Assembly: GCA_914767715.1 (NCBI GenBank)
Contig: OU612067.1
Coordinates: forward strand, 14,327,001 to 14,391,000
Direction: 5' to 3'
Length of the DNA: 64,000 bases
DNA from: Membranipora membranacea
Taxonomy: Eukaryota; Bryozoa; Gymnolaemata; Cheilostomatida; Membraniporidae
In this document: positions 9,350-42,700 of the stretch, piece by piece
Position numbering within the stretch: position 1 is the first letter of the stretch
Layout of the letters: every line of letters starts with the position of its first letter
The notes under the pieces: model-generated
The model's database searches: none
The model's input: the letters and a program-made list of their open reading frames with translations, nothing else
Told to the model about the DNA's origin: nothing
Made by a program: the position numbers and the translations under genes

Positions 9350-9416
9350 TGCTGCCCCGGCAGGGGGGCGTCAGATGTGGGGGCACGAGTCTAGGGGGCT
9401 CAGACTAGCTACACAG
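9350..9416 (+). repeat. G-rich dispersed repeat (array copy)
   Basis: Contains GGCAGGGGGGCGTCAGA, then a CACGAGTCTAGGGGGCTCAG segment and CTAG. Related stretches occur in every unit carrying this part and outside the array at about 51237-51296, 51690-51745 and, on the opposite strand, 52806-52872, so it is a dispersed family rather than a unit-specific feature. Confidence 0.55.
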
Positions 9417-10199: not shown

Positions 10200-10420
10200 A
10201 CCTGGAGATTTAAAAGTTTCAGGATGCAGATAACTCCACACAATAACAAACCAAAACCTGTCAGCCGATCAAAACAAAACACAAGCACATGGGTCCATTT
10301 ATAAAGGTACAATAATAGTGATACATGAGCAGATAACACCACACAAGCAATATCCAACATCACCAATAACGCAGACAAGGCTTCATTGTTGGCCTGAATC
10401 CCAGGCTACCAGTGTGCACC
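10200..10420 (-). other. Open frame with two hydrophobic stretches across the U1/U2 boundary
   Basis: On the minus strand an open frame of about 65 codons encodes two hydrophobic segments (around SALLVMLDIACVVLSAHV and GFGLLLCGVICILKLL). It is followed by a possible donor (CAG then GTACC) and preceded by AG dinucleotides that could be acceptors. At the U4/U5 boundary (about 46384) a small insertion puts a stop in the same frame, and I find no partner exons. I regard it as probably non-coding. Confidence 0.2.
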
Positions 10421-13932: not shown

Positions 13933-14056
13933 TTTATTTCAGTGGTTTTGCTGTTTAAAATATAATAAGATTGATTTAGGATATATCCTCAGCCCGCTAG
14001 CATTTTAGTACTCGAAATTCGCTGTGCATAACAGGCGAACAGCGAAATCATATCTG

Positions 14057-14162
14057 GAGCTCTAGTCTAAGTGCTCAGACAGCTGCAATGTGAGTGTTTG
14101 ATAACGTAATGTTGCTAACTCGCTTTGCAGCCGTCTGAGCACTTAGACTACTAGAGGAGCTC
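14057..14162. repeat. Inverted repeat upstream of GST (U2)
   Basis: Same arms as in U1, at the same distance from the GST start. Confidence 0.75.
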
Positions 14163-17100: not shown

Positions 17101-17582
17101 TGGCAGCCTAGAACCCTAAATGTTTCAACTCTGGCTTAAGATGTTTGCTATTGAATTGTGTTAAATGCAGATGAGAAGTCCCAAAAGTAAACATCACATA
17201 TTGCATACGAGGCATTCTGGTCTATAACGTAAGTGACACTTTCAGGACCTGTATTGGGTAAACTGGCTTGCTCTGTATGCAACTATTGCCATGGGTAGTG
17301 GTTAGTGATATATTGCTATAGAAGAATTTGGAAAGACGCATCGTGATGGTGTGACGTGTTTCAATTCCTTATTTTGCCAGACAGTTGTGGTTTCCCACAG
17401 TTTTACAAGTTTGGCAAGCATTCATTATTCCCTCCATAATAATCAAAATATGATTTTTCCCAGAATAACAATAATAACTAGCTTTATCAACAGTGATCAT
17501 AACAAAATGAATACAACCCTGAAGTTAATTAATGGATATTCAATAGTTAACATTTGGTCTTGTGATGGGGGATCTTGTGCAC

Positions 17583-17590
17583 TATATAAG
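17583..17590 (+). promoter_or_regulatory. TATA box of peptide gene, U2
   Basis: TATATAAG at the same distance from the ATG (17666) as in U1. A C-to-T substitution a few bases downstream (ctggttttg) is shared with U3 and U4 and not U1. Confidence 0.68.
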
Positions 17591-17665
17591 CTGGTTTTGC
17601 AGGCTCAACACAGTCATCATCTAAATCAGCAGTCGAGCAGATAGACATAATTCAGCTTCTTCACA

Positions 17666-18261
17666 ATGGCACGATTCATATTGGTGGTTATTGCTTGCCT
17701 GTTCATGGCCGCTGTTGGTGAGAATACTTTAATTAGTTATAGTTAGTGTAATATGACGACTACAGTATTTATTCATGTGAACTATGTTCTGTTTATCGTT
17801 TAAGAATATTTCAAACTATTTAAAATGTGATTTTCTCAATAAATAATAGTAAATTGATAATACACAAAGAAGAAATCTCAGACTTTGAGATAACAAAGTC
17901 AAGAACTAGTTGAGAATTTAAACAAAATTGCAAGCGTGACATAAAACAATTCATGATCGTTTAAATGCTAATTAAAATCTTTTAATTTTTTCAGTTGATG
18001 CTGTCTTCGTCACAGAAAAATTCTGCAGGAGTTTGAACCCTGAGGGTTTTGAACAGTGCGTGCAAACTAAAGACTGCGTCGGCTACGGCACCCGCAATAA
18101 ATACTGCTGTACTGATTGCAAATTTAATACTTGTATGCCTGATGATGAATGTTGGTCCGACGGTAAGTATTTTAAAGTTTCAATTTTTTTTATCTCCATA
18201 TGTTGCCCATTCAGCAGATTACAACTATGAAGATTTGCTCAAACCGAAAGTATATACCTAA
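17666..18261 (+). CDS. Secreted cysteine-rich peptide, U2 copy
   Basis: Exons 17666-17717, 17995-18162 and 18215-18261. The coding sequence, both introns' splice sites and the CAGCAG acceptor match U1; only intronic and flanking substitutions are visible. The TATA box is at 17583-17590. Same 88-aa product as U1. Confidence 0.82.
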
Positions 18262-21200: not shown

Positions 21201-21491
21201 CATCAAACTTATCGACAGTAAGTGATATGCTTGCTATGATGTATTGATAGGCTTAATAAATCTAAATCCTTCGCCGAGTCAAAATGCAAACACATTACTA
21301 GAACAACATCAAAAAATAAAAAACAATTTAGTAAACACAATGTTTATTTAGCTCGGGCACCTAAAAACATAACTTGGTCTCTTTATCACAGAAAGTGCAT
21401 GTAATGGATGATAACTCATATTATTGAGAGAAATACGGACGGCTGTTTGACAGATCTAAAAATAATCAGATGCAAGACAACACCGACAAAT

Positions 21492-23923
21492 TTACAAATT
21501 GGAGTCGGGTCGACCGGCGAGGTATTTCTTTACACGCGGATCTGCCTCAAACTTGGCCGACCATTGTGTAGCGAAAGGAGTTATGCTCATCACATCTGGT
21601 GTGGCTAGTTTAGCGAAGTCCATACCGCACCATAACCATACATCAGCAAGACCAATCTGCAAAATTAAATAATGTTGTCTGCATAATTCTTCTGCATGCA
21701 GAGAGGCGTGAATCTAAGAAAATTCTGATATGCACTGGAAGAATTGGAGAAAATTTTTTGCATTCACTTGCTTTAGTAATATAGGTGAAGCAATCATATC
21801 CCTTTTGCACTGTGGGTCAGAATATGGAAAACATAATCAAGGGACTAATAACTGGTTTGTGGCGATGTGTAGTGACACATTGTGCATATCAAACCATTAT
21901 ATTTGGCATGAGCATTTGTTACCATAGAACTTGCCCTGGGTAAACAGGCCAAATAACACATAATACAAAACTTCATAAGTACTTCACATTTGTCCTGATC
22001 CATACCTCAGGCCAATTTGTAGAAATTATCTATCAATTGCCACCCGTCTTATATGTAATAGCAGTTAACAAGAATTCGGACACAAAATTGATCCGCCCAA
22101 AGAATTCTGGCCAATGTACACTACAGTACGAAAACACTTTGACTATGACCCAGGTACTGTATTCTATTGATTAGCAGAGATATGTAAAAGTTGTCTTACC
22201 TCGTTTCCGAAAAGAAATTTCTTAGATCCGCAACTTTTTGATAGCTTCTCAGCCAAGTTAAGGGCGGTGACCCATCTCTGTTTGGCTTTCTCCAAGACTT
22301 CGTCCTTGTTTTCTGGCTCTGGGACAGACTTGAACACCATCCAAGCGTAGATATGTGGAACGGCGTAGGAGTTCATTACATCCTGAGCTGTCTCGAGCAC
22401 CATATCGTGTAAAGTCTCTTCCCATGGGGTCTTTCCAGCCATACCTGTGAAAGGTTGATTAAAAGTTTATTAAACGTTGATTCAAGGTTGATTCAAGGTT
22501 GATTCAAGGTTGATTCAAGGTTGATTCAAGGTTGATTCAAGGTTGATTAAAATTAAATTAATTAAATTAAAATTAAAGGTAGGGAACATGAGTTATAACA
22601 AACATCATGATCGCTGTGTAGTGGTTAGAAGTTCTGTTTGAATCAAGTAGCATCATTTGTTGTGACATTGGCGCACTGTATTAACAACCTTGTTTTTGGC
22701 AACCTTTTTTTTAGCTGCATGACGAGGTTAGCACTGTATACCTATGTCACAAGCGTTACTCCACACTCAAGGCAAATTCGTTCATCTTTTCGGGGACTAG
22801 AAAGTTATGAATCGAATGAGAAGGATGTGCAGCCTTGAAAATATACCAAAAACTACGGTGTAAGCTGGTTAATTCAAACTTCATAATTCAGAATTCCTTT
22901 TAAGGAAAATTGGTCCCTTCAGCCAGATCTCAATGCATTCTAATATCACTTAATTCAGACTCTGCTTAATAAGAACACATTTTTGTGTTCCCCAGAGGTT
23001 AGAATTAAGTATACGGCGCTGTATATTATTAAGCTAACTGTATGGGAAAACCTTTAGGAAACCCAATGAGAAAACCACCCAAGTAAGTGGCCAATCAAAT
23101 CGTACTCAGTTTAATCTAAGAAGAGTACAAGGAGAATTGAACCCACCAAATTTCTTGGCGACGTGTCTGGCGATGACGTTGGAGCAGCAGATGAGACCAT
23201 CACTAGTTGTTAATGTGGGCAGCTGACCCAATGGCTGAGCTGTAAATAAGAAGAGTAAAATTATAAGTCAAATGTAAAATATGGTTAAAACTTTCCAATT
23301 TATCTCAAATCAGCAATAATTCATCTTCATTATTTCAAAAACATGTCATCTATGATGCGGGTAAAAGCACAGCCAGCCCTTAAAAGCGTTCGGGATGGCT
23401 ATCGCGGCCGTAGGCAGTCGTTGGACCGCCTACGGCCGCGATCGCCATCCCGAACGCTTTTAAGGGCTGGCTGTGGGTAAAAGCTGTGGCTTTTTGATTT
23501 TGTCAGTTTTCTTCTTTTTTGGGTCACAATAACAGGTGATCAAATAAAAAGTTAACTTAAAACAAAGAATATTGTAGCTACTATTACTTCTTATACAGTT
23601 ATTGATAAACGTTATCCAAAAATACTAAAGATAGATAAAGATAAAGATAAGGCTAATTGGAGGTTGTTGGAGTTGTCTGGTCTTGAGACAGAACCCAAAG
23701 ATAGCTTATTTTCTTAAAAATGATTTAGATTGCCAAATAAAGTATTAAAGCAGAAAAATTGATTTCACAGATACTTACATGGCTTCATCTCAGCCCATTG
23801 CTCGAAGGTGACTCGCTTGTCCTCCATCTTCTTGCCGGCGATGGCGTACAGCATACGAGTGGCCTCACCACGAGCTCGGATACCAAAGTACAGAAGGGAA
23901 TCATCTCCTTTCTTGCCAGCCAT
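21492..23923 (-). CDS. Sigma-class glutathione S-transferase, U3 copy with two substitutions
   Basis: Exons 23779-23923, 23147-23239, 22200-22444 and 21492-21656, 215 aa. This is the only copy whose protein differs visibly: in the last exon Val186 becomes Ile and Lys191 becomes Thr, both in the C-terminal helical domain. In many GSTs this region lines the hydrophobic substrate site, so a small change in substrate preference is conceivable but not shown. A synonymous change lies in the first exon (Phe13 codon). The minisatellite has six GATTCAA units. Confidence 0.9.
23368..23475. repeat. Hairpin element in GST intron 1 (U3)
   Basis: Same element with one extra mismatch (GGCAGTC instead of GGCGGTC near the loop). 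Flanking GGTAAAAG repeats are intact on both sides. Confidence 0.85.
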
Positions 23924-24047
23924 TTTATTTCAGTGGTTTTGCTGTTTAAAATATAATAAGATTGATTTAGGATATATCCTCAGCCCGCTAGCATTTTAGT
24001 ACTCGAATTTCGCTGTGCATAACAGGCGAACAGCGAAATCATATCTG

Positions 24048-24153
24048 GAGCTCTAGTCTAAGTGCTCAGACAGCTGCAATGTGAGTGTTTGATAACGTAA
24101 TGTTGCTAACTCGCTTTGCAGCCGTCTGAGCACTTAGACTACTAGAGGAGCTC
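24048..24153. repeat. Inverted repeat upstream of GST (U3)
   Basis: Same arms as in U1. The adjacent short hairpin has one substitution outside its stem (CGAATTTCGC instead of CGAAATTCGC). Confidence 0.75.
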
Positions 24154-27100
24154 ATGAGATGAATCAGAATGTGCACAACACATCACATCCTGATGCTCTT
24201 TGTTTACTTGCAGTGCAGTAGGAATCAAATTCAAATTCTGCTATTTGGTTATTGTTGTGCAGAGCTTTTCAACAAGACGCAACACGGGAAAATCATTGTG
24301 CCGTCATCAGATAATCATCTCTTTGCATCCTAGTTTGAATATCAAGGCTATGCCATTACTTCCACCCCTCCCATCATCAAAACACCTCAGAAACTCAAGC
24401 TAATCACAGTCTAGATCATGGCTGGGCACCCTTTTATTGAAAAAGGCCACATTTTACGCAGGCTCAACTCAAAAGGCCGCAACATATCTTCCAGGGATAA
24501 AATTGGAACTGGAGTAACAATTTTGGCACTTCTATTTTGTAAAAACTGCAGTATGTTGCAAGAAACATCAACCAAGCAGATATACCGGTTTATCTAATCT
24601 TCAGGAGTTTTGTGATGTCGTTTTACCTCATGATTTTATTGTGTACATATATGTTTCATGTGTATGACAAAGGGCAGGATGTGTGTGGGAGGGGTGCTGT
24701 AGTTTCCTCCCAGGAGCCAAAGTGTAAAAAAGTGGCGATTGGGAAAAAATAATTTCGCGCAGCGTAAAAATAATTTTGACGCCCTGTTATAATTTTGGTC
24801 TGACAGCGCCTGCCCTCCTGCAACAGGGGAAATCTTTTGCAAATGGTTGTGAAATGAATGCATAATGCCGGAGTAATTGTGACAAATTGTAACACTTTCG
24901 TCCAAAATTTTGCAGTTTTGCAAAAAATAATAATTACTATTATGTTAGAGAACTTTGTAATTTTTAATATGCCAATGTCACTGTTTTGTGTCATTTCGAA
25001 AGAAAAACAACTTGAAAAAGTCATTGGCATTCGGCAAATCATCATATTATGATGATTTTGTGTAGAGTGGCTAGGGACGCTTGGCTCCATGCATGATACA
25101 GAATGGCCACTACTTTGAAATATCTTGGACTTACAGAATGCTATGCATACTTGTTTCTCAACATAATGAAAGAGGAATCAAAATTAATGTGTGATAAATC
25201 TTACAGGTGTAAGGCCACAATTAGGCCGCAAAAGATTACCTATTAGGTCGCACTGGCAAAAAGGCTGCAGGTTGCCCACAGCTGGCGTCGATCATTGTAT
25301 CCTGACGTTGATAAAAGTCACAAGAATAGATATTTTTATGACATTTTATGTAATCATTTTCAATTGGCTTGATTAGCCCTTGGAACTTGGCAAAAATTGT
25401 GCAGTGTCATCTAGCATAGATATTTGAAGCTCAAATGGCCTAGATCATTGTATTCTGACGTTGATAAAAGTCACAAGAATAGATATTTTTATGACATTTT
25501 ATGTAATCATTTTCAATTGGTTTGATTAGCCCTTGGACCTTGGCAAAAATTGTGCAGTGTCATCTAACATAGATATTTGAAGCTCAAATGGCGTAGATCA
25601 TTGTATTCTGACATTGATAAAAGTCACAAGAATAGATATTTTTATGACATTTTATGTAATCATTTGTAAAAATTGACTGCTTTTTCCATGACACTTCGTC
25701 CCTGACACCAAATTTAATTGCATTTGATAGAGCTAGATTTTAATTTATCTTGTTTTGTAATAGGAACTACTATTTCTGGATTCACTTTTCTTAGGAAATA
25801 TGAGGCAAGTTTTTGTTAACCAAATAAGGTTAGCAAATGCAGTTTTACAGCGGTGATCAAGGGAGGTCACTCTGAAAAATATAACATAACATACATATAA
25901 TACATACAATATAATCATTCATAGTCATAAAGAATATTCTCATGAAATATACCAATAACTATATTGTATTATTTTTTGTTTACATAACAGTTTTGACACA
26001 TATAAAGCAGTCAACGAAGTACTTTATGCACACAAATCAACACCAGACAAGTTTTACATCCTCTGTTGTGTGCTTTTTCCTGATAGAGAGTTTGAGTGTG
26101 ACAGAGTAATGAGTCATGTTACAATCCTTATAACATTTGGGCTCACATGTTCCAGATTGTCTCCCATTTTACCAGCAATTGAGAATATTTATCTCTACAG
26201 TAACAAACCTTCCTGCAGGCCTTCCTGCGCCCCTGTTGCCCTCCCACCCCCGAGCCCCCCGAGCCCCTGTTGCACCCTCATTGCAACATAATACTACCAA
26301 CACAACCCTTGCCCCGCCACTTTACAAGTCATAGGTACAGCCCTGCTGCAGATCGTCATCATAGAAATACATCTTGTTATGCAAGGTTTGTCCTGCTTAC
26401 TTGAGTATCGTTCCATTACTGCATTTATATAAAGAAGGGGCCCAGTATTTGTGGTGATTGATTTAAGGTAAGGCCACACGTTCTCATGCAAATTTCTGCT
26501 TCTTCTTGCAAATATAATTTCGTACTAATGTCAACCTGCCACACATGATTCTCATCTCCGAAAATTGTATGAGCGCAATCCTTCTGCGCTAATACGAACC
26601 ATTCCCCAACAGTGATATGAAATAAAAAGATTTATACCAAGGAGAAGCTGTTACTCGTTGTTTATACCAACCGCCCAGTGATTCAGCTTCTATGTATGCC
26701 TCAACCATCTCCTAATAATTGTTTCAATTTGATACTCATAATTCACTGTATCCCTTCCCCTCTTACTCCAGGTCCAAAATTGAATGAGAAACTCTACATA
26801 TTGATCATCCACTCCATCTTTTTACCAAAGTTGTGTTTGCATAGATATGACCTTGACTTTTCAATCAAAACGGGCAGCCACACAGATAGCATTTTGTGAA
26901 AATTTATACTATCTGGTTACGTACATTGTTAACATACAGCGTTCCACAAATTGTGGAAATCCCAATCCGAACGACAGTTTACATGAAATTTACTCCTAAT
27001 TGTGAGAAAACAACCCCATATGACTTCACTTTAAGACAGATTTTTCTTTTGGTTTTACTAACAAGAAAATTCAGTGACAAGTTTATGACATGGCAGCCTA

Positions 27101-27572
27101 GAACCCTAAATGTTTCAACTCTGGCTTAAGATGTTTGCTATTGAATTGTGTTAAATGCAGATGAGAAGTCCCAAAAGTAAACATCACATATTGCATACGA
27201 GGCATTCTGGTCTATAACGTAAGTGACACTTTCAGGACCTGTATTGGGTAAACTGGCTTGCTCTGTATGCAACTATTGCCATGGGTAGTGGTTAGTGATA
27301 TATTGCTATAGAAGAATTTGGAAAGACGCATCGTGATGGTGTGACGTGTTTCAATTCCTTATTTTGCCAGACAGTTGTGGTTTCCCACAGTTTTACAAGT
27401 TTGGCAAGCATTCATTATTCCCTCCATAATAATCAAAATATGATTTTTCCCAGAATAACAATAATAACTAGCTTTATCAACAGTGATCATAACAAAATGA
27501 ATACAACCCTGAAGTTAATTAATGGATATTCAATAGTTAACATTTGGTCTTGTGATGGGGGATCTTGTGCAC

Positions 27573-27580
27573 TATATAAG
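27573..27580 (+). promoter_or_regulatory. TATA box of peptide gene, U3
   Basis: TATATAAG conserved upstream of the ATG at 27656. Confidence 0.68.
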
Positions 27581-27655
27581 CTGGTTTTGCAGGCTCAACA
27601 CAGTCATCATCTAAATCAGCAGTCGAGCAGATAGACATAATTCAGCTTCTTCACA

Positions 27656-28251
27656 ATGGCACGATTCATATTGGTGGTTATTGCTTGCCTGTTCATGGCC
27701 GCTGTTGGTGAGAATACTTTAATTAGTTATAGTTATTGTAATATGACGACTACAGTATTTATTCATGTGAACTATGTTCTGTTTATCGTTTAAGAATATT
27801 TCAAACTATTTAAAATGTGATTTTCTCAATAAATAATTGTAAATTGATAATACAAAAAGAAGAAATCTCAGACTTTGAGATAACAAAGTCAAGAACTAGT
27901 TGAGAATTTAAACAAAATTGCAAGCGTGACATGAAACAATTCATGATCGTTTAAATGCTAATTAAAATCTTTTAATTTTTTCAGTTGATGCTGTCTTCGT
28001 CACAGAAAAATTCTGCAGGAGTTTGAACCCTGAGGGTTTTGAACAGTGCGTGCAAACTAAAGACTGCGTCGGCTACGGCACCCGCAATAAATACTGCTGT
28101 ACTGATTGCAAATTTAATACTTGTATGCCTGATGATGAATGTTGGTCCGACGGTAAGTATTTTAAAGTTTCAATTTTTTTTATCTCCATATGTTTCCCAT
28201 TCAGCAGATTACAACTATGAAGATTTGCTCAAACCGAAAGTATATACCTAA
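27656..28251 (+). CDS. Secreted cysteine-rich peptide, U3 copy
   Basis: Exons 27656-27707, 27985-28152 and 28205-28251, encoding the same 88-aa product. A G-to-T change in the polypyrimidine stretch before the CAGCAG acceptor (near 28195) is the only difference close to a splice site, and it makes that tract slightly more pyrimidine-rich. The TATA box is at 27573-27580. Confidence 0.82.
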
Positions 28252-30238
28252 TGGTCTAATATGTGACTGATTCTAGGGCTATATGGTTTCAGAATTTCGA
28301 TAGTCTAGACTCTAGAGTCTAGAGTGTCTTAAGAACGTTGTCTCCAATTGATTAAGTTACGTTGTGTCCAATTATTAAGTACGCTGTGTCTAATTATGAA
28401 CAAAAGGATATTATTTTTTGTTTCTTAATCTTTGTAATTTAATATAATTCTGACTCTCTGGAATAACTGATGACTCCCTCTCTTTTATTTCCATGAGTCA
28501 GATCTCTTTGTTGATTACAATTTAGAAGGGGGGGGGGGGGGGCGTCGGACAAAAGGGGTGGCAAAAGTCTATCTTGGTCTCTGTCAGCAACAACCCTTTA
28601 TTAAATTGATGGAAGATGACCTCTTAGGCAAGATGCAAAGAATGTTTTTGACCCAGTAAATCTTAAAGCTTCAGCTGTGTTCAAAGGCAATCACAAAGTT
28701 CCCATGCATTGATTGGAACTCAAAATGAAGCGAATCCCTCACCATTTGAAATGGGATGCTTGAAAAAAATTCAAAAAGGTCTACCGCAGTCGGGAATTGA
28801 ACCAGTCTTTGATGCTATCCACTGTGCTCGGCCCTAATCGAACGAAGGAACACAAACCAATACGCAACTAAATTGAACCCATGCTTTTGCCATGATTCCA
28901 TAGCTCCTCAAGTTGATGTGAACACAATGAATGGCAACTTAGTGAATGTCAAAGGTTGCTGACGCATGTAAAATTAGACTGAGAACTTCAAAACAATACC
29001 AAACAATATGATAGCGACACTGTGACTTAAATTAAATGATTTACACCAGGACTTATGATAGCATCAAAGTAGAGAACTGCTTTCTTAGCTTTGTCAAATT
29101 CACTAAAGTATATTTTTATTTGTGTCTTATAGGTAGTTGATACATCCGCCATCACCAGAACGGACAAGCTGCGCAAGTACTTCACTATGCCCTTCTGACC
29201 TATGAATATGACGAATTCCTTTGAACACATCATTTTCTATCATAATCTTAGCTACAAAACAATAAAACTTCATCAAAGAACCCACAGTGATTTCATTTAT
29301 GAGCTCTTGAAGTTGTAATGAGTACAAGTGCTGCCCCGGCAGGGGGGCGTCAGATGTGGGGGCACGAGTCTAGGGGGCTCAGACTAGCTACACAGTCATG
29401 ATGACAGACCATTTGATTGAAAACCGCATCATGAGTAATTGTTGAAGTGCGTTTTTTCAGGTTAGTCATTATTGTCGAGCATGTGCTGGGGTATCCAGCA
29501 GTACGGTCATAACCTTGCCATAATGCCTGGTCAAAATACCATCAGGACAAAATGCGCAGAGAGCATGATATGCCAATGAAAAAAAATGCAGGAAATATAC
29601 CAAGGCCCAAATAAACTTTCGTTAAAACACCAGTTGTTGCAACAGTCAAGAGCCCAGTGGAATCAAAGTCAGGTTGGACATAACACCATTTGGGACAACA
29701 AGCCACATCCAGCGTTTAGTCAACATAGGTTTATGACTGTCAGTTTCTAAGTGACAGTAACAGTGACAAAGACAGTCATTTTATAGTCTGAGTTTACATC
29801 CAAATTGCAATTATACTAACTGTAAGAGACAGAGCACGTATTAGATCCATATTTGTAGGGTCGGATTATCGCCTACCCAGTATACATGTGTATTATATAT
29901 ATCACGATGATTTACAAATTAATGAGTATGGTAAGGGATACTGGTGAATTTGAAATAGTCTTTGTTAAAGCCCCAAATAATATAATGTAGAAACCCACCC
30001 AATAGGCCTACCAAGATTATTCACAGGCTATTGTTTTGGAATCGGCCAAGCCATAGATGGACATGTCGGGTAAATAAATTTGACTAATTTTATGTGCCTT
30101 TTTACGCCCTATCAGGCCTGTCAAAGAGATCAACACTCTTGTATGACAATCCAGTTCATGTAGGGTCTTCATGATGGTACCTGGAGATTTAAAAGTTTCA
30201 GGTTGCAGATAACTCCACACAATAACAAACCAAAACCT

Positions 30239-32120
30239 GTCAGCCGATCAAAACAAAACACAAGCACATGGGTCCATTTATAAAGGTACAATAATAGTGA
30301 TACATGAGCAGATAACACCACACAAGCAATATCCAACATCACCAATAACGCAGACAAGGCTTCATTGTTGGCCTGAATCCCAGGCTACCAGTGTGCACCA
30401 ATTCAGCTTCTTATTTCTCAGCACAGACTTAAGAAAACCACTAACTGGGCCTTCCACCGTTGAGATTGCAAGAAAAATCATATTATTCATTTGATGCAAA
30501 TGAATTATATTTTTCAGATCGTTGGCGGGAGTATTGTGTCTAGAGGCTAAAGTAACCTTATAGGAAGTTAATTAAATGTTGGTTAAAAACGTTATTTAAA
30601 TTCTTAAGAATGGGCAGCAACATAATGGGTGCCATAGGGGCTAGGCCACCAATATCTGCGGCAATTTCCTCTCAGTTTGTAGGCAGGTCGTAGCACACAA
30701 ACATGTCCCAGTAGTCAGTGGGCTGCATTGGGATTCAATTCAAACCCACGCCTTTCAACACTTTTGCATGCTGAGGGACGCGCTCTAACTAGCTGAGCCA
30801 CCTCCTAGTCCTTAACAGTGTGTAACTCATTAGTTCTAGGGTAAAGATAATTTTAAAGTTTTACTGGGAGTTGCATTGTTGACATTTAACTAAAAACCTG
30901 TTCTGTTATTACTCGATCGATATTGTGCTGTATTATTAAATCTACAATCCTCTAACACAAGGGTCAATAATATATCACCTCACAACTTCAAAGAATTATT
31001 TATTCAGTCTGAGCGCTTGGGGTGCAGGTAAATTTTAGCTTTGCAAGGTTTGTTTTGCTCGGCTCAAGTTTGAAAACCTAGTGATAGAAAACCACCTGTA
31101 ACAATAACTTGAGCACACACCTCCCGATTTAAACCTATGATCAAGTTTAACAAACAAGAAACAAGCAAGCAAAGTCTACTCACTTCTAATACCAACATCA
31201 AACTTATCGACAGTAAGTGATATGCTTGCTATGATGTATTGATAGGCTTAATAAATCTAAATCCTTCACCGAGTCAAAATGCAAACACATTACTAGAACA
31301 ACATCAAAAATAAAAAACAATTTAGTAAACACAATGTTTAGTTAGCTCGGGCACCTAAAAACATAACTTGGTCTCTTTATCACAGAAAGTGCATGTAATG
31401 GATGATAACTCATATTATTGAGAGAAATACGGACGGCTGTTTGACAGATCTAAAAATAATCAGATGCAAGACAACACCGACAAATTTACAAATTGGAGTC
31501 GGGTCGACCGGCGAGGTATTTCTTTACACGCGGATCTGCCTCAAACTTGGCCGACCATTGTTTAGCGAAAGGAGTTACGCTCATCACATCTGGTGTGGCT
31601 AGTTTAGCGAAGTCCATACCGCACCATAACCATACATCAGCAAGACCAATCTGCAAAATTAAATAATGTTGTCTGCATAATTCTTCTGCATGCAGAGAGG
31701 CGTGAATCTAAGAAAATTCTGATATGCACTGGAAGAATTGGAGAAAATTTTTTGCATTCACTTGCTTTAGTAATATAGGTGAAGCAATCATATCCCTTTT
31801 GCACTGTGGGTCAGAATATGGAAAACATAATCAAGGGACTAATAACTGGTTTGTGGCGATGTGTAGTGACACATTGTGCATATCAAACCATTATATTTGG
31901 CATGAGCATTTGTTACCATAGAACTTGCCCTGGGTAAACAGGCCAAATAACACATAATACAAAACTTCATAAGTACTTCACATTTGTCCTGATCCATACC
32001 TCAGGCCAATTTGTAGAAATTATCTATCAATTGCCACCCGTCTTATATGTAATAGCAGTTAACAAGAATTCGGACACAAAATTGATCCGCCCAAAGAATT
32101 CTGGCCAATGTACACTACAG
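30239..32120. repeat. Unit U4, left fragment, ends at a junction in GST intron 3
   Basis: This segment aligns to U1 1-1882 and stops abruptly after position 32120, where leucine-rich repeat coding sequence begins. It retains the SINE-like segment and the last GST exon (31486-31650). The remaining part of this unit resumes at 41347, corresponding to U1 from about 5047, so about 3.16 kb of unit sequence is missing. Confidence 0.92.
31486..31650 (-). pseudogene. GST remnant: last exon only (U4)
   Basis: The final coding exon of the GST gene (55 codons including the stop) is intact, with its acceptor, and is identical in translation to U1. Exons 1-3, the promoter and most of intron 3 are gone, cut off at 32120 where the LRR-ROC-COR-caspase segment starts. 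On this strand there is nothing upstream to supply exons 1-3, so the fragment cannot make a GST. The intact frame suggests the loss is recent or that exchange with neighbouring units has kept it unchanged. Confidence 0.88.
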
Positions 32121-32121
32121 C

Positions 32122-35100
32122 CACTCACTCACTACTATACCTGAGAGTATTGGTCAGCTGACTAATCTCACCTCACTGGATATCAGAGGCTACTCACTCA
32201 CTACCATACCTGAGAGCATCGGTCAGCTGACTAATCTCACCTCACTGAGTATCTTCATCGACTCACTCCCTACCATACCTGAGAGCATCAGTCAGCAGAC
32301 TAATCTCACCTCATTAAGTATCAGCAGCCGCTCACTCACTACCATACCTGAGAGTATCGGTCAGCTGACTAATCTCACCTCACTGCAGATCAGCGGCAAC
32401 TCACTCACTACCATCCCTGAGAGTATTGGTCAGCTGACTAATCTCACCTCACTGACTATCAGCAGCCGCTCACTCACTGCCATACCTGAGATCATCTTCG
32501 ACATTATATCGTTGCAACAGCTCAGATGTGATGGCTGTTATTCTCTAACATCACCACCTAGAGAGGTCTGTGAACAGGGCATTTTTGCTGTTAGAAGGTA
32601 CGTCTCTGACTTGCATTTGGAGAGAGGGCGTAACCAGCATCTTATTCCTGTTACGGTTATTGGGAATCGCAAAGCAGGAAAAACAAGTCTAGTGTTGAGT
32701 GTTCAGCAAAATAAAAGAGTACTAACTGCACGTAATCCTGCTGAGAGCAAATTGGATGAGGCAACAAGAGTCTTCAAAGTATGCGAGGCGGATGTCAATG
32801 AAAGTTCTAAATTGGTATTTTCTGACTTTGGAGGGCAAAAGATTTCCAGTTTCTCATACCAGTTGAGCTTCAAAGCCCGTTGCCTTCCGCTGCTTGTAAT
32901 AGATATAGCGGATTTTGACAGATTAGCCTCACTGGATGGAGAAGAAGTAGCATGCCAAGAACTTTGTATAAAGTGGCTGACACACCTGTATCTCTCATGT
33001 CCGAGTCTCGGCCGACCAATAATAGTCCTAACACATTGTGACAGAGTTACTAATGAATGCTTGAAACATCGAACGCAACAACTTGTGAACACTACAGAAA
33101 CTCTACGTATGAGGATAATCAAGGAGGAGAACAAAGTAGGATCTACATTGAGCCCATTCTTTATCATGGCTAGCTTCGCAGATATCACTGAACTGTTTGT
33201 AAGGACAGAAAACATTGCCAACCTATCAAAGACCTCTAATCTAGCTGACATTGAGAGACTTAAAGAATTCCTTGAAGCTGCAGGATCTAAGATTATCACA
33301 GAATTACCGGCAAGCTGGTACCGAATACTCATCAAAATAACAAGTGACAAAGACAGGCCGTTCTTCACCCTTTCTGAGATAGACGAGCTCTTTCCTGATG
33401 ACACTGATCATGTGGCACTTCAGTATCTTCATGATTCAGGCAGAATAATGTGGTTCAAGAGTGTCGAAGGTCTCGCCTCCTTTATATTCCATCGCCCTGA
33501 GGTTCTCACTGCTCTTATTGAGACGCTGTATAATCACACTCAAGATGCCGCCTGGGTTACACGATTAGCTAGCTTTACCTCATATATCTGGGCCGGAAAG
33601 ACAATCGAGACTAGAAAATATACGGAGATGGTCAATCAGTTTCAATCAACAGGGGTTATGGAAGCTGCATTGCTCCATCATTTACTAGAACAAGAATCAG
33701 AGCTTCACCCTGACATTGGAATTGAAGTCCTGAAAACTTTCCACCTTATACACAAATTCGCAGATAAATGTATTATCCCTTACTTTGCTACCAGGAAAGT
33801 CTCAATTCCTGCCATTCATACTCATCTCATCCCACTGAAAGTAGATCTGTTTCTACAAGGTCTCCCTATCCCCACATATGTCTACTCACTCATTACGGCG
33901 GCATATCTAGACATCAATGTGAATCCAGTCAATCATGTCGAGGCTGGAAGGAATGGCGCTGATGTCACAGAGATCACCGGTCTGTTCAAATACCTTGTTC
34001 ATGATGAATCTGCCAGATGTGTGACATTAACCATCCTCTGCCCGGCCAAGAGAATCTGCGAGGCGTGGAGGGATCAATTGGACACGCTGAGCAAACTAAC
34101 AACTGAATTAAAAACCGTGTGGAAGGCTGTCCGTTATGAGAGTGTTTTCTATTGCTCACATTGTCTGCTGAACAGCATACAAAACCCAACTACGAATGTT
34201 GATCCTGCTTGGCTCGAGAAGCCACTACAACTAGAGAGCAGTTTTTCAGGAGATGAGACATGCTACTGCCGACATGTGAAGAATAGTGAGGTTGATCGAT
34301 CGATTCCACTCCCACTGATGTATCCATGTAAGTAGCAAAACCATTATCTTTTCTAGAAATATCCAGATCACATTTGATGTGTTATTCTTGCTCATCTTTG
34401 TCAGCTCATGTCAATTCTTTTTATGGCAAGACATTATTCCTAAACTAGGATGTTTTACTGAAGTGTTTTTTTATGTAGTTTTCTAGTACCAGGTTTTTGA
34501 CACAGATGTTGGGTCAAAATCACATTTTATGCAGACAAATTTTGGTCAAACATAATACAGTCAAGCAGATGATGATAGATGATAGATAGATGATGAGTTT
34601 ATTTGGTTTATTATACTTGATGGTCTCATTGCAGGTTTGACCAGCAGCGAGCTAGGAATTGATAGATTACAAGACTATGTGACAAATCTCACGGCTCTGT
34701 CCGGTAAGTCAGATAAGTCAGCTCCGACAGGGCTTCACAATTATTCAATCTGATCATGGATTCTAATTAAAATCCTCTTGAACTACCAGAAATTACTTAT
34801 TCGCAGGCTGATTGTTAGGTTAGGAAAATTGCAAAGAATACTCTAATTGAATCCAATCAAAAGCAACTGGACACAAATGGAAGAGAATGCATTATAAAGC
34901 AGGTTGATCTGCTTTAAAAATTAGCGTTTGGTGTGTTTATTCCTATTTTCGCGCATAGCTTCAACATCGGTGTAGCAGTGACAACCTCTAAAACTACATT
35001 AATTTATTCTCATAGATAAGTCGCAAGTGATGAAACTGCTTGTGGAAAAGTATCCACTAGACATGAGCGACATCAGACTGTTATGTGATCTCAGTGATCA

Positions 35101-36203
35101 GTACATCATACCCTATACACAAACTCATGTGAAACGATGTGGGCTCGTGCTGTTCAACAAAGATGGTAGAGTCAACGCGCTAGAGGAGGCCTATGCTATG
35201 GACGACGGCCTCACAAGAGCAGGCATTGAGACGAAGAAGACAGAATGGTCTAGTGCTATACAGCTGTTTGACTTGATAGAAACTCAAATCACAGAACTGG
35301 TCTCATGTGGACTATCCCTACTTGTGATGTCCATCATGTCGCATGGTATAGCTGGAATGCTAACAGGAAGTGACCGCACACAGGCAATCATTTCTGACAT
35401 CCTCAAAGAAACAGAGAAACAACTCCCAGAGCATATACCGTTGGTAAAAAGAGTTATTAACCTTTTGTTCACTTATGTCATTTTTGGAATAGTTTCACAG
35501 GGTTTACATGAGATCTACCAGTACCAGTCATGTGACCACATCCACCATTGTAAATTTCTGCAAAAAATGATGATGTGAGTTAGTCTGAGAACAGACACAA
35601 CGCCAGGATGATGATGTGGAACACAAAGAAATTCAAACTTTGCATCCACTCCACACGTTATACGTTTCAGCTTGAAATGGGTATCAACTACAATTCCCAA
35701 ACAAGAGCATGTATGTATGTAACCTGCCCCTTTACTGTTTTGAAAACATGATGATTTGTAGTTGTATTCTATCGTCGTAGATAATTATGATCCAGGCCTG
35801 TCAGGGTGAACATAAAGCTTCTGGATCAACCTCTACAAGCAGCCTAAGAGATGCCCAGGGCTCAACAGAAAAGGATAACCAGCTGATCAAACTGAAGAGG
35901 CCTCACACCTTGTTACTCATGTCTACAGTACATGGAGGGATGTCTGTCAGAGGGGCGTTCACTGGAGCTATCGCGAGACAGATAGTTAAAGCTGATGGTA
36001 AGACTACTATAGAAGAGATGGTGACTAAGGCTAATATAGATCTAAAGAAGAACGAACCAGATCAGTACAATCAGACACCAGAACTAAGAAGTACACTTCA
36101 GAAGAGTCTAGTACTTCCACCAGGGGAGCAGAAATCTGATTCTCTACAAAGCCTGAATAAACCATCTAAGATCAGTCTTCTCAAAAAGCTTGGTGTTCTT
36201 TAG
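32122..36203 (+). CDS. LRR-ROC-COR-caspase fusion protein, 5'-incomplete
   Basis: Four exons: 32122-34327 (5' end open), 34635-34703, 35016-35443 and 35781-36203. Phases agree and about 1041 residues are visible. Domains: LRRs (residues about 2-139, consensus SLTTIPESIGQLTNLTSL); ROC GTPase with P-loop GNRKAGKTS (181-189), switch DFGGQ (235-239) and THCD (304-307, in the NKxD position); COR to about 735, ending with paired-Cys motifs (YCSHC); a linker; caspase about 790-1041. The caspase has catalytic His868 in MSHG and Cys908 in QACQG, 40 residues apart as expected, and a p10-like part (STVHGGMSVRG, Arg958; STLQKSL). The p20 RxGTxxD motif is not recognisable. ROCO GTPases are nucleotide-dependent dimers; caspases are dimerisation-activated proteases. 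A receptor-to-protease switch in the cytosol is inferred. No in-frame ATG precedes the P-loop, so the gene is truncated or has an upstream exon I cannot see. Confidence 0.88.
32125..32469 (+). repeat. Five near-identical 69-bp leucine-rich repeat modules
   Basis: Modules start at 32125, 32194, 32263, 32332 and 32401, each 69 bp (23 residues), followed by a diverged sixth at 32470. The segment coding for TIPESIGQLTNLTSL is almost unchanged at nucleotide level, while the three or four residues after the Leu-x-Ile strand (RGY, FID, SSR, SGN) vary. The array begins at the junction with GST intron sequence, so more modules may have existed upstream. Confidence 0.9.
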
Positions 36204-36902
36204 AACGCAAACACATAACAATCTCTCTCAGTTTAGTTACATTCATCGGCCATCACTCGGGGAACCTGAATTCATAGACTTTCAACAAGCATGTATAGAA
36301 ATGTGTGTATAAATATAATGCCAATGCAAGGATGTAGTATAGACATATTATTCATCTATTCATTTCAATATCATTACTAAGCGTATTATAACAACGCATC
36401 CCTAATTTTTTTCCATGTTTGAGTTCTTGTAATTTTTGTAATTGTTCATCTACAACTATTCTGTATTATTTCTATAACATGTAATATATATTTACTAATA
36501 ATGAATACTTTCATAGTAATATGCTTCTCTCCATCACCCCTGCTGGTAGTTAAGCCAGTCAGATATTTGGCTATCTTTGGAAATTTCTCATTCATTACCA
36601 TACTTTATTTCTGTATCATATTCAATACAACAAATATATCCTACACTTATTACACTATGTGATGCTACCGAGAATCTATATTGAAATGATAGATTGAGAA
36701 GACAATTATCAATGCGAACAACACTTGCCTGTCTGACAAGCTATATTTCGGGGGGGGGGGGGAAGGGGGCAATTGACGCCCAATCAAGGGGGTGGTAGGA
36801 TAAAGCTTGACAACTTTCAATAACAAAGTTGGTTTAGAAGTACAAAAGTGTCAACCTTTCAGCTCTTGCCAACTACTTCACAGTTTTCTTGAAACAGCTT
36901 AA

Positions 36903-37279
36903 AGGGCAACCAAGGTTTCAAACAACTTCTCATTGATGGCCATTGATTAATAGCAGATTGCACCTTCTGCATGGGGAAAAAGACAAAATATAATTCGGAT
37001 GATTATTCAGCCAGAATTCTTGTGAAACATTTCTTCCATCAGGCACTCAAACTCAGCTAAAAGAGAATACCACATAGCAGTTTCCTGTTCCTGTTATTAT
37101 TTAGCCTGTGCTCTATAATTATTACAGCAAAGTCTTGGAACCTCCCCTAAACTGAAGTGTTACCCAGCTTAGAGTCAGCAACTACTTTGAGTTTTGCATC
37201 GCGTAATGCACAAAGCTGATGCTGCCCAGCACATTATATCCTACCCATTAATGCATTGCTGCGAAACCTTGGTTGCCCT
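36903..37279. mobile_element. TTAA-flanked MITE, family A
   Basis: Starts AGGGCAACCAAGGTTTC and ends with the exact reverse complement, with TTAA on each side (36899-36902 and 37280-37283). A 377-bp non-coding element with terminal inverted repeats and TTAA duplication is the signature of piggyBac-type non-autonomous elements. The interior shows no coding capacity. Confidence 0.8.
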
Positions 37280-39402
37280 TTAAAGTTTTAAGATCTACAA
37301 CAAATAGTGTACTGTATTTTTGAAATTGTTTTCCCCTTGCCGGCATGTGGAACTAACCTTCAATACATCTGTGATACAATTGCGATTAAGCTGGGTACAT
37401 TAAACAGTAGCTAACTTTGTACGAGGGAACTTGTAAATATTCAATGGTATGATATTATAAACGCATGGTCTTTGACTAGAAAAATTGACAGGGGAGGCAA
37501 CAATATGAAGAGCAGATGTGCCGGTGAGAAGATGACACTGAGTGGGCATTGTAACTCAGTGACTTATATGGTTTCCTCGTTATCTCCCCCTACATTTTTT
37601 AAATTTGATGCAGAAACCATCACAAATTGATTGAAAGTTATTGTGCAGGCTTGGTGGTTGAATTACCATTTAATCCACGAAATGAATGCAAAAAATCATG
37701 AATTTCATAAAAAATCATGAATTGTTGGCAAAAAGTTGTCTTTTAACCAGATGACTCAATTAAAATGCACTTCTACATATGCTAGAAGCGTCAAATTTTT
37801 TTGCTAACCACATTATGATGATATCAATATATGAATCATTTTGGATCACTCTATCGCTATTTCCCTTCATTTAATGCAGCATTTCTTAAAATTTATTCTC
37901 AGTTTTCTCATATAAACTTTTGATGCAAGCTGGTACATTTATCCTCTATTGAATAGCACGAGGCACAGCATATAAAGGATTCCTTTGTTTACCAAATGTT
38001 GAAACAATGAAAAGTATTGAATCGTATAGAGGCCTCACACTCAGCACAATACAATGTTACAAAATTAATATCACAATGAAGGTTTGATGTGAACCTGTAG
38101 TCTTGTCTTCTAACATGACATCACTTAAAATGATAACAGATTATGAGCATCGAATGCTGACTTAGATTATTGTTCCTAAAATGAAGATGGAACCCTTATT
38201 TAATTTTGAAATCAGAATATAAAAATTACTTAGGTATGATAGAAAAACCAGTAATTTTAGAAACCTCCACATGACAGAGAATATTAGGATTCTAAAACAG
38301 GGACCGGCAGATTTATTCAATATTTTACCTTAGTCATTTCAGTACCCATGAATGGGGGTTAATGTGACCACAGTACACTCTTCATTTTTTAACACCTATA
38401 AGATAATTTGTCAAGTCTTATGAGCTTGCCCAGATCATAACCTTACAGCAAATTTACACATCAAGCAACACTATTAGCAATGACAATAGTAACAAGATCT
38501 CGGAAATCCCTGTCAAAGAGTAGCAAATTCAAGCAGCATCCAGGCATTGTATCATTTTACATTGTACAGGGGCACACACAGCAATTCCACTGTGTTATGT
38601 TGTAATATTTCAAAACTTCTAGACTCTAGTGTTTTGTCAGATCAGGGAAACACATTTCTTCTCAGCTGTAAACACTTGATTACGTATTTTTCACATATTT
38701 TGAGTACTGTGTATTGCCAGCTTTTCAAATAGGCCCAATGTGATTATTAACCATAACCATAAACCCTGCTTGGTGATTTCACCTGGGTTTGTTATTGAAA
38801 CATCTATTGTGAAAACTACTCTGAGTTTGTTCACCTAAACAAGGATAGGTGTCTCCTGTCTCTTTGAAATAGTTTCATCGATATTGAGTTTACAATGGAT
38901 GTGAAGCCTAATCCCCCAAGAAACAATAGAGTGAAGGCTGATTATTATCTCTAGGTATTTACACATTAAAGTGTGCTATGTAATGTTACTTGATAAAATC
39001 TCTTATAAATGGTCTGTGTAAGGTGGGTTCAGTGAATGAGATTATCCTGTTATTGCCAAAAATTTTCAATGGCTCCTGCAGTGAGAGCTTGCTCCTGTAG
39101 ACTAGCTATATTGTAGAAGACAATATCAAATTGTTTGCAATTATGGACTCAAATTTAATTGCTTGAGTTTGATATTTCAGGGAGGGTGGCAGAGGGTATA
39201 TCCCACCCTCCCTGGTTATTTCAGACCATCATTGTATTGGTATTAATTTTAAATATGTGTAGATTGGTGTACCAAAATCAAGGATGAAGAAAATCAGTGC
39301 CTAGTGACGTTGGCTATAGCTTTTTGCTCAGATTGCAGGCAAAAACATATGAAAGACATTTATTCTGTGTCACAGGTATTTCATGATGCAAGCCTGTTTT
39401 AA

Positions 39403-39736
39403 ACCACTGCTGCCACACAGCCAAATGTGTGCTTATAGAATTCTGTGTAGCTCAAAACTAATAAAATAAGGCTGCAATCTCAGCATTGTCACCTAATGAG
39501 CAAATAATTTGCACAAATTGATCGTCAAAATTAGGGTATGAAACTAATTATGTCTTACTAGCGCACACTGTACACGTCATAAGCTGGTGCGTAGATTTCA
39601 TGCCCTGATTTTGAAGATCAGTTTGTGCAAATTATTTGTCCATTAGGTGACAATTATGAGATTTAAGTCTCAATTAATTATCTTGGAGCTATGCAGAATT
39701 CAATGAGCACAAATTTGTATGAGTGGCAGCAGTAGT
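39403..39736. mobile_element. TTAA-flanked foldback MITE, family B, copy 1
   Basis: Flanked by TTAA (39399-39402 and 39737-39740). Termini ACCACTGCTGCCAC and ACTACTGCTGCCAC (inverted), with the similarity continuing imperfectly inward through GAATTCTG, AGGTGACAAT-type and TTTGTGCAAATTATTTG segments, so most of the element can fold back. Non-coding. A second copy is at 58980-59336. Confidence 0.8.
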
Positions 39737-42700
39737 TTAAGGGCAGTCCAAGGGAAAAATCATGGTAATTGGCTATTGCACTGCTCTGCCTATTCTACCC
39801 AGGGCTGTATCCATGGATTTCGATAGACAAACCAGGCTGGGTACAGGAAATGCGTTGGAAAGTCTTCCCGCAGGGAAGGATATTGAGGAACTATCTGAGG
39901 AATAGAGGTAGTTTAATGTGTTCCAGCCCATTTTGGAAGGAAAATTATCGATCGGCTTGCTGCAGAAACAATCCATGGAAAATTTATCGAATTACGGAGC
40001 TCATTCATGAGCTGCTTGATGATTTTGACTTTGCTGCAACAAATATTATGCATGGGTGTTATTTCATTCGACGGGCATCTTAAATTGAGACTTGCTTGAA
40101 AATGATTCAGACAGCGGCAATATCACATTTCTGGCCATAGCCTACCTTATGTCAAAAATATCAGTTTAAAACTCATTGATGACATCTTAACCTCAAAACA
40201 TGTAAGAATTGGCAAACCACACCATATCAACCAGCCTAATCCATTCATAATCCCAACCAATCTCACAATGGCCCCTCTGCGCGCCTGGTTATTAAAAGTT
40301 TAAGGGGTTTCAAGAGGATTTTCAAAATTGACACGCTGAAAATTGGTAGGGTCAAGCCCACTAAAAGCCGTTCCGACGAATACACTATTGACTCTACCCC
40401 ACATACCTGTAATACCAACTTGTGGCAAGAAATTTAAAAGTATCATAGAGAATAAAGAGTAGAGGAAACTATCGGATACTAAGTTGTTGCAGCTCTAATG
40501 CTGCCATCGTGAGTTAAATGCTGCTGCTCTAGATTATCATCAATTTGTCAAGTTTGTTTAAGGAAACTTTATACCTCCTAGTCTCCAGTCCTCTGTCGAT
40601 AAAGTTCCAACTCAGTGAGCATGGTATACGATAGGCAGATTTAAAAATACCATACAAGGCTAAGACCAAAGCTACCAAAACCTTGCAGAATCAAACTCAA
40701 ATTTAATTGATCAGTAATTGTGTGTATTGATAATATCACTTGTTAATTTCCGGACCTTATTAGAGTTAGAATTGACAAAAATTCACTGCTGCTGCATAAA
40801 TATTTCTCCATTACTTTTGCTTAGTAATAGTTCAGTATAGCAAAATTTTGTGTGCATTGAATTCTATTTCAAAATCACAATGTTTCAAAATGTTTGTGTG
40901 GCATCATTTGAGTGCCATACATGGAATTAGCATCAACACTTAATTTTAGTATAGCAGGTCAAATTCAAAACTGCTGGGCTTTCAATCAACAGACAAACCA
41001 GTTGATACAAACTAGAATATCCACTGTCTTTTGTTTCTATTCTTCTAAATTTCTTGTGGATTTTGTTTAGCAGAACAAAAGACTTTCTATATGTATATAA
41101 AATTTGTGGGGTAATAACTCTAGTTTAAATATTTATACAAACAAGGAGATGATAATTCCTGCAGCTATTGAACTACGAAATCCATATAAGTCACTGAGAA
41201 GCTGTATCTATGATTTGCTGGAACTAAACTCAGTCGTTGGTACTTTCCCCTGACCTTGTAAACAGAATCTGGATGTAGACTCGCAATACCACTTGGTCTC
41301 TGCTCTGCCATTATTAGCGGCTAAGTTTTACTGTATATCGTCTATCTGGCATTCGTCAAATCATCATATTATGATGATTTTGTGTAGAGTGGCTAGGGAC
41401 GCTTGGCTCCATGCATGATACAGAATGGCCACTACTTTGAAAAATCTTGGACTTACAGAATGCTATGCATACTTGTTTCTCAACATAATGAAAGAGGAAT
41501 CAAAATTAATGTGTGATAAATCTTACAGGTGTAAGGCCACAATTAGGCCGCAAAAGATTACCTATTAGGCCGCACTGGCAAAAAGGCCGCAGGTTGCCCA
41601 CAGCTGGCGTCAATCATTGTATCCTGAAGTTGATAAAAGTCACAAGAATAGATATTTTTATGACATTTTATGTAATCATTTTCAATTGGTTTGATTAGCC
41701 CTTGGACCTTGGCAAAAATTGTGCAGTGTCATCTAACATAGATATTTGAAGCTCAAATGGCGTAGATCATTGTATTCTGACGTTGATAAAAGTCACAAGA
41801 ATAGATATTTTTATGACATTTTATGTAATCATTTGTAAAAATTGACTGCTTTTTCCATGACACTTCGTCCCTGACACCAAATTTCATTGCATTTGATAGA
41901 GCTAGATTTTAATTTATTTTGTTTTGTAATAGGAATTACTATTTTTGGATTCACTTTTCTTAGGAAATATGAGGCAAGTTTTTGTTAACCAAATAAGGTT
42001 AGCAAATGCAGTTTTACAGCGGTGATCAAGGGAAGTCACTCTGAAAAATATAACATAACATACATATAATACATACAATATAATCATTCATAGTCATAAA
42101 GAATATTCTCATGAAATATACCAATAACTATATTGTATTATTTTTTGTTTACATAACAGTTTTGACACATATAAAGCAGTCAACGAAGTACTTTATGCAC
42201 ACAAATCAACACCAGACAAGTTTTACATCCTCTGTCGTGTGCTTTTTCCTGATAGAGAGTTTGAGTGTGACAGAGTAATGAGTCATGTTACAATCCTTAT
42301 AACATTTGGGCTCACATGTTCCAGATTGTCTCCCATTTTACCAGCAATTGAGAATATTTATCTCTACAGTAACAAACCTTCCTGCAGGCCTTCCTGCGCC
42401 CCTGTTGCCCTCCCACCCCCGAGCCCCCCGAGCCCCTGTTGCACCCTCATTGCAACATAATACTACCAACACAACCCTTGCCCCGCCACTTTACAAGTCA
42501 TAGGTACAGCCCTGCTGCAGATCGTCATCATAGAAATACATCTTGTTATGCAAGGTTTGTCCTGCTTACTTGAGTATCGTTCCATTACTGCATTTATATA
42601 AAGAAGGGGCCCAGTATTTGTGGTGATTGATTTAAGGTAAGGCCACACGTTCTCATGCAAATTTCTGCTTCTTCTTGCAAATATAATTTCGTACTAATGT

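Follow-up and report, generated by a model that had tools for sequence, protein, structure and literature searches.

The window analysed here is a stretch of 64,000 nucleotides from the bryozoan Membranipora membranacea (14.327-14.391 Mb of contig C3; the genome comprises 339 Mb in 18 contigs). An animal origin is also what the caspase type, the spliceosomal introns and the size of the genome suggest. On its plus strand, between positions 32122 and 36203, lies a gene with four predicted exons that carry leucine-rich repeats (LRRs), a ROC GTPase domain, a COR domain and a caspase. As argued below, this copy probably belongs, as a truncated member, to an expanded family of one-chain LRR-ROC-COR-caspase receptors. 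The features of the gene are as follows:

32122..34327, plus strand: exon 1 (5′ end open) with six LRR unit starts, ROC and COR, from the open frame 32086-34335, the splice model, Pfam and fold
32128..32496, plus strand: remaining LRRs, 23 residues (69 bp) each
32662..32688, plus strand: ROC P-loop GNRKAGKTS, then DFGGQ (32824-32838) and THCD (33031-33042)
33313..33597, plus strand: COR-A (Pfam, residues 410-504, below cut-off), then the remainder of COR and a conserved Cys/His cluster
34327 (exon end), plus strand: exon 1 donor, phase 1, directly after ...PLMYPC
34635..34703, plus strand: exon 2, a bridging exon of 69 bp (phase 1-1) between COR and caspase, from the splice model, bridging-exon scoring and shuffles
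35016..35443, plus strand: exon 3, linker and caspase p20, with the presumed S1 Arg at codon 35168 and the catalytic His at codon 35342
35781..36203, plus strand: exon 4, QACQG, variable linker, p10 and stop

The LRR units start at 32128, 32197, 32266, 32335, 32404 and 32473. Exon 4 encodes the catalytic Cys (codon 35799), a conserved Asp preceding Ala (35850) and the S1 Arg of p10 (35949), and once spliced the catalytic His and Cys are 40 residues apart. The three introns are all GT-AG, with exon ends at 34327, 34703 and 35443 and exon starts at 34635, 35016 and 35781. The first-pass annotation, made from the sequence of the window, had reported the LRR modules, the P-loop, DFGGQ, MSHG and QACQG 40 residues apart, the S1 Arg of p10 and three well-formed introns with an exon 3/exon 4 junction at 35443/35781, and all of these were found again where it had placed them. 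It had not reported the Arg at codon 35168, which, judged by motif spacing, looks like the first S1 position. Just 5′ of the exon 1 donor, at about 34153-34269, a C-x-H-C motif and one more Cys, close to where COR ends, resemble a metal site; these residues are invariant in 21 sequences (ROC-COR alignment A1, residues 578-616).

Identification of the ROC, COR and caspase domains

In a Pfam search of the spliced window product, LRR_8 (44.5 bits) and Peptidase_C14 (48.4 bits, cut-off 21.4) were recovered, the latter at residues 822-1023 and thus within residues 790-1041, where the first-pass annotation had set its recovery as a test. The two other domains expected from that annotation stayed below their cut-offs (Roc 21.3, cut-off 27; COR-A 22.5, cut-off 35.3). 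The paralogue L044 scored 27.5 for Roc, above the cut-off; among four relatives scanned, three passed Roc and one lay at the cut-off, and none passed COR-A. A profile built from 21 ROC-COR relatives retrieved the structure of the C. tepidum Roco protein (CtRoco) with an E-value of 8e-15. When an AlphaFold model of the ROC-COR part was searched with Foldseek, the first 16 matches were all ROCO proteins (LRRK1, LRRK2 and CtRoco), with low TM-scores. The E-values were 2e-14 for LRRK1 and 1e-12 for CtRoco, and the COR structure 3dpt was matched with a TM-score of 0.55 by target length. Given the Roc score of L044, the profile match and the fold match, the ROC-COR assignment is well supported despite the sub-threshold Pfam scores, and the COR region proposed in the first-pass annotation holds. 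The window gene has a ROC GTPase directly followed by COR, the arrangement that defines ROCO proteins. Its nucleotide-binding motifs are intact, as G81, G86-K87-T88-S89, D135-x-G137-G138 and T204-x2-D207 were invariant in 21 of 21 aligned sequences.

Pfam matches to the window product up to an E-value of 1 included no NACHT ATPase, the domain that defines NLRs, and the product is not classed as an NLR. NCBIfam matches of the window open reading frame came from the LRRs and were far below cut-off, and PADLOC gave no match for two proteins.

ROC-COR and the caspase probably share one transcript

Twenty relatives of the window gene were fetched, every one selected for its p10 match, and ROC-COR, p20 and p10 stood in the same order and on the same strand in all 20. 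After setting aside L039, L040, L041 and L047, in which a deletion fuses COR to p20, 16 loci remained in which the end of the COR exon could be tested. The exon ended at one shared donor position in all 16 (15 by pattern, L045 as GTAAGA). The frame crosses this donor and meets a stop inside the intron in 14 of the 16 and in the window, the exceptions being L042, whose ROC contains a stop, and L058, whose ROC frame is broken. A bridging exon of 22-32 residues, with the approximate pattern G-x-LQ-x-Y-I-x-x-L-x-x-LS, was the best candidate in all 15 loci scored as well as in the window, and in each of the 13 loci tested 0 of 40 interval shuffles were as good. The p20/p10 intron was bounded by phase-0 GT and AG sites in 21 of 21 sequences, when searched up to 12 bases from the expected site.

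The same PLxxPC exon end was reached by 13 of 13 metagenome relatives. Two of the metagenome fragments, P0007 (ROC-COR) and P0017 (p10), are each assigned to an ENA contig with a length of 4898 bases, from which we infer that they lie on one and the same contig. Distances in the ROC-COR and caspase parts were correlated across the window and 15 loci (r 0.97; 0 of 5000 permutations), which fits a fusion but would also fit joint duplication. The shared donor, the bridging exon and the intron phases support the prediction that ROC-COR and the caspase belong to one transcript.

A family of at least 135 loci

The genome was searched with the p10 exon (150 matches; 150 of 256 candidates scored) and with ROC-COR (125 matches; 125 of 215), and with the Pfam models Roc (148 matches; 150 of 372) and Peptidase_C14 (145 matches; 140 of 515). 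Among the ROC-COR matches listed, 115 of 125 had a caspase match on the same strand no more than 5 kb downstream, and none had one upstream or on the opposite strand. With a limit of 8 kb the figures were 116 downstream, 0 upstream and 1 on the opposite strand, and a wider upstream span gave 116, 1 and 1. The Pfam Roc matches listed were paired with a caspase in 50 of 67 cases where the frame had at least 350 residues and in 0 of 81 where it was shorter. Joining the ROC-COR and Pfam Roc matches gave at least 135 distinct loci with ROC-COR and caspase, distributed over contigs C3 (54), C1 (26), C5 (21), C9 (16), C10 (13), C11 (2), C2 (2) and C8 (1). Since the same domain order recurs at at least 135 loci, the architecture in the window is not due to chance.

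Seen from the caspase side, 135 of the 285 merged caspase loci listed carry an upstream ROC match. About 150 of the 285 have no ROC among the matches listed, and for this reason caspases seem to be expanded in other contexts too.

One locus of a distant clade on C9 (L062) was read and contained RKGADID, GHG and QACAGG. The COR exon of L062 stops at the corresponding position (CCAT|GTAAGT) and is followed by a weakly similar bridging exon, for which 2, 42, 77 or 286 of 2000 shuffles were as good, depending on the reference used. An independent fusion in the C9 clade is less likely given this shared exon end and bridging exon, and the C9 clade and the main family probably stem from one fusion event. 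A horizontal transfer from bacteria was also considered: in GTDB and IMG/VR contigs no relative was confirmed by short-pattern scans of low sensitivity, which carry little weight; 0 of 9 matches in GTDB contigs, obtained with two such patterns, were confirmed.

The caspase is apparently catalytic

Peptidase_C14 was matched by six of six diverged members (Pfam), and the catalytic His and Cys were present in 21 of 21 sequences, which places the family among the predicted caspases (C14A). The Arg of p10 was likewise retained in 21 of 21, and the first presumed S1 Arg in all 17 members that retain that part. In the six diverged members, which are 54-75% identical to the first, R51, Q147 and R199 were invariant. 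The predicted S1 pocket thus has the Arg-Gln-Arg set for Asp, where R51 is presumably the first S1 Arg, as judged from motif spacing and from the Pfam match beginning there. The linker between p20 and p10 varies in length and sequence. Asp-Ala nevertheless stood in one alignment column in 18 of 20 distinct linkers, against an expectation of 4.5 of 20 from shuffling (pair anywhere, relatedness uncorrected), and marks a putative Asp cleavage site between p20 and p10. The closest PDB match of the caspase was caspase-8. In diverged pairs the ratio of nonsynonymous to synonymous rates (dN/dS) was 0.07-0.43 in both halves, where computable. Taken together, the caspase appears to be catalytic.

The putative LRR sensor in intact relatives

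The intact neighbour L044, which lies about 160 kb away from the window copy, comprises an N-terminal exon and a single open frame of 1705 codons, in which 40 LRR starts were counted. The N-terminal exon is also found in L053 (38% identity). In the fetched parts of L045, L046 and L048 we counted 31, 24 and 34 LRR starts, respectively, and in L053 (joined with L061) LRR frames are repeated about every 377 bp at ~5.9-8.0 kb. The N-terminal exon of L044 and L053 had no Pfam match, and the frames that lie farther upstream in L059, L060 and L061, when compared, gave short weak matches only (best E-value 0.003). An additional N-terminal effector domain was rejected on these grounds.

To score variation among the repeats, only exact 23-residue units were used (34 in L044, 27 in L045 and 17 in L046), and other units were dropped. 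Five positions were taken as concave from LRR geometry and were chosen after viewing L044. Relative to the commonest codon, nonsynonymous and synonymous changes in L044 numbered 78:3 at these five positions and 42:44 at the other 18. The corresponding figures were 45:7 and 11:26 in L045 and 30:7 and 13:24 in L046, whose support is only partly independent because both are paralogues. The changes in intact relatives therefore seem to concentrate on the presumed concave face.

The window copy is truncated at a junction with a GST-like tandem array

The gene is surrounded by the following features:

1..32120, gene on minus strand: tandem units of ~9985 bp (about three copies) with a GST-like gene, self-BLAST identity 97-99.5%
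32120..32121: rearrangement junction between tandem unit and LRR block; three other compared units diverge after 32120
36204..41346: stretch from the gene to the tandem unit, of which the first 700 bases alone are shown to be common to paralogues

According to self-BLAST, the tandem unit ends at 32120 and resumes at 41347 in another phase. Sequence comparison detected no counterpart in the window to the N-terminal exon of L044. Numbered from 32086, the P-loop occupies residues 193-201 and the frame has its first Met at residue 342; no in-frame ATG lies 5′ of the P-loop in this copy. The 1041-residue conceptual product of the first-pass annotation is not a complete protein, as position 32120 is a rearrangement junction, a point which that annotation had missed. 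The same junction recurs in L039, L040, L041, L042, L043 and L047, and five of the seven copies that share it are damaged, by an in-frame deletion (L039, L040, L041 and L047) or a stop (L042).

As judged from these comparisons, the window copy is 5′-truncated, its front end having been lost in a rearrangement with the GST-like tandem array. It is probably a pseudogene and most likely arose as a duplicate, without function, of a gene resembling L044. The simplest reading is that a gene fragment was placed into the GST-like array and then amplified along with it, and the junction at 32120 may also be a mis-assembly.

Several further observations were made around the gene. The tandem units, whose GST-like frames lie on the minus strand, cover 1-32120 and 41347-50586, and the GST-like gene of the last unit is also cut by the junction at 32120. 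The frame 31486-31707 (minus strand) matched GST_C_3 with 18.9 bits, below the cut-off of 21.6, and a second GST-like frame (22164-22466) had no Pfam match. Matches of L039-L044 to the window all stop at 36904, some 100 bases short of the respective locus ends; this shared end of similarity in all six compared paralogue loci is a possible second breakpoint. The deletion common to L039, L040, L041 and L047 joins COR residue ~626 to p20 residue ~823 within a single open frame, which makes these copies naturally shortened ROC-COR-p20 fusions. A short self-complementary repeat resembling a miniature inverted-repeat transposable element occurs at 39399-39741 and 58975-59341 (88% alike) and also upstream of L044 (L059, 8739-9043).

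Comparison with known systems

Bacterial LRR-AP-GTPase-COR proteins carry at least 24 C-terminal effectors, caspase included, as reported in the accessible text of Kaur et al. 2021 (PMC8195603). The predicted window architecture has the LRRs, AP-GTPase, COR and C-terminal effector that define this class. With these conflict proteins it shares the order of fast-evolving LRRs, AP-GTPase, COR and C-terminal effector, and the occurrence of several paralogues per genome, as far as that text describes them. It differs in that the bacterial proteins use many effector types, whereas here at least 135 loci lie in one intron-bearing genome, and 115 of 125 listed ROC-COR matches have a caspase with caspase-8 as its closest PDB relative.

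In early-branching animals, recognition or signalling modules are likewise joined to ROC-COR: cnidarian NG1 is LRR-Roc-COR-TIR (PMC5094078), and Trichoplax has at least 17 ROCOs, some with CARD, death or TIR domains (PMC4104024). Unlike here, the available parts of these two papers name no caspase protease domain. LRRK1/2, MFHAS1 and DAPK1 have the ROC-COR unit in common with the window gene; the fold matched LRRK1 and LRRK2, and MFHAS1 is likewise LRR-ROC-COR. These proteins carry a kinase, a death domain or no effector in the sources available, in contrast to the caspase found here. Brown-algal LRR-ROC-COR genes are clustered, expanded candidate immune receptors with LRRs on repeated exons, which resemble those of L053; the accessible part of PMC4104024 names other effectors or none.

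No animal ROC-COR-caspase family turned up in the literature searched, a body that excluded most subscription journals. In the text available of a ROCO review (PMC6337361) the word caspase has 0 occurrences, and the accessible parts of PMC7159879, PMC4715348 and PMC6208332 contain no animal ROC-COR-caspase case. In a paper on sponge NLRs, COR and caspase domains are mentioned in the legend of an NLR figure (PMC12909245, available in part). The first-pass annotation had been aware of no description of this exact architecture in animals. This agrees with the literature searched, but a bacterial counterpart is already in print (PMC8195603), and the novelty needs narrowing to an animal-type ROC-COR family with a metazoan-like caspase.

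Proposed mechanism and alternative explanations

We consider it probable that one-chain LRR-ROC-COR-caspase receptors form an expanded family here, of which the window copy is a truncated member. For the full-length members we propose the following mechanism. The full-length layout would comprise the N-terminal exon, a long LRR array, the ROC GTPase, COR, a short bridge and the caspase p20-p10. A ligand would be bound by the diversified concave LRR face. ROC-COR dimerisation is nucleotide-dependent in other ROCO proteins, and nucleotide exchange in ROC-COR may here alter the dimer state. Two fused caspase domains would thereby be brought together and activated by proximity, much as in initiator caspases, which become active on dimerisation and cleave their own linker. 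The caspases might then cleave themselves at the conserved Asp-Ala of the p20/p10 linker, and the active caspase would trigger cell death or an inflammation-like response. The NLR inflammasome with caspase-1 and the apoptosome with caspase-9 also combine a repeat sensor, a nucleotide switch and a proximity-activated caspase. Their switch is a NACHT or NB-ARC ATPase and their caspase a separate, recruited protein, whereas here ROC-COR would replace NACHT/NB-ARC and the caspase would be part of the same chain. The single-chain sensor, switch and protease suggested by the first-pass annotation thus survives as the layout of the family of at least 135 loci, but not for the window copy itself, which is 5′-truncated and probably a pseudogene.

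A number of points weigh against this reading. The one-chain prediction was drawn from genomic DNA alone, and the start exon of a full-length gene was not found. The 3′ end of the bridging exon is uncertain in 7 of the 15 scored loci because the chosen donor is non-consensus. Many near-identical tandem copies inflate all locus counts, which are therefore not independent. Among the matches listed, 10 of 125 ROC-COR matches and 17 of 67 long-frame Pfam Roc matches have no caspase. To the sub-threshold Roc and COR-A scores of the window copy is added the medium confidence of the ROC-COR model (pLDDT 69, pTM 0.49). The caspase is divergent (best PDB E-value 1.5e-4 alone and 1.4e-7 as a profile), Glu stands in place of the Asp that we take to be the usual last residue of RxGxxxD, and L042 and L043, both truncated copies, lack the linker Asp. 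Many dS values exceeded 1 or were saturated, and dN/dS of p10 was 0.90-0.99 in the two closest pairs, which differ by few changes. L048, with its 24-residue spacing, fell outside the LRR scoring, and the choice of the concave positions after viewing L044 counts here as well.

Four other explanations were weighed. A ROCO gene and a caspase gene might be separate neighbours that were duplicated together as a block, and tandem duplication would likewise preserve their spacing and the correlated distances. This is very improbable in view of the COR frame that stays open through the donor in all but two testable loci, the phase-1 bridging exon between the two parts, the same exon end in relatives from other samples, and the aligned p20 without a Met ahead of the caspase core in L049, L052, L053, L054, L055 and L056. 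If one chain is accepted, the caspase part could still be a cFLIP-like pseudo-protease with a regulatory role in docking or dimerisation. The divergence of the domain, the Glu in RxGxxxD and the lack of an in-frame p20 start in four copies would fit such a role. The retention of His and Cys in 21 of 21 sequences, of the presumed S1 arginines and of the linker Asp-Ala, together with RKGADID, GHG and QACAGG in the second clade (L062), makes it unlikely in our view.

The window copy itself might be a working chimeric gene whose 5′ exon is spliced from within the GST-type unit. An AG is present at 32119-32120, exons 1-4 are open with intact splice sites, and L043, which has the same junction, is also open. 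We doubt this explanation, as no in-frame ATG precedes the P-loop, the N-terminal exon was not found in the window, and most copies with the junction are damaged. The alternative with the greatest weight, though still rather unlikely, is that the same molecule serves in development, apoptosis or self/non-self recognition and not in microbe sensing; LRR diversification and growth in copy number would suit allorecognition equally.

Beyond the proposed receptor family, we tentatively suggest, as a possibility somewhat short of an even chance, that the main expanded cytosolic receptor family of this animal consists of ROCO GTPases rather than NACHT NLRs (NACHT genes uncounted). Each member would be a one-molecule inflammasome with a hypervariable LRR, a GTPase dimer switch and a self-processing caspase, present at at least 135 loci and acting without an adaptor. 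Inflammasomes and apoptosomes consist of a separate sensor, adaptor and caspase, and the family described here would tie ROC-COR to a caspase in one chain. In such a chain, self-cleavage would be a direct read-out of the debated ROC-COR nucleotide cycle, which is relevant to LRRK2. The family would further show that animals, in parallel to bacteria and brown algae, have expanded their ROCO GTPases into diversified receptors, just as they have their NLRs.

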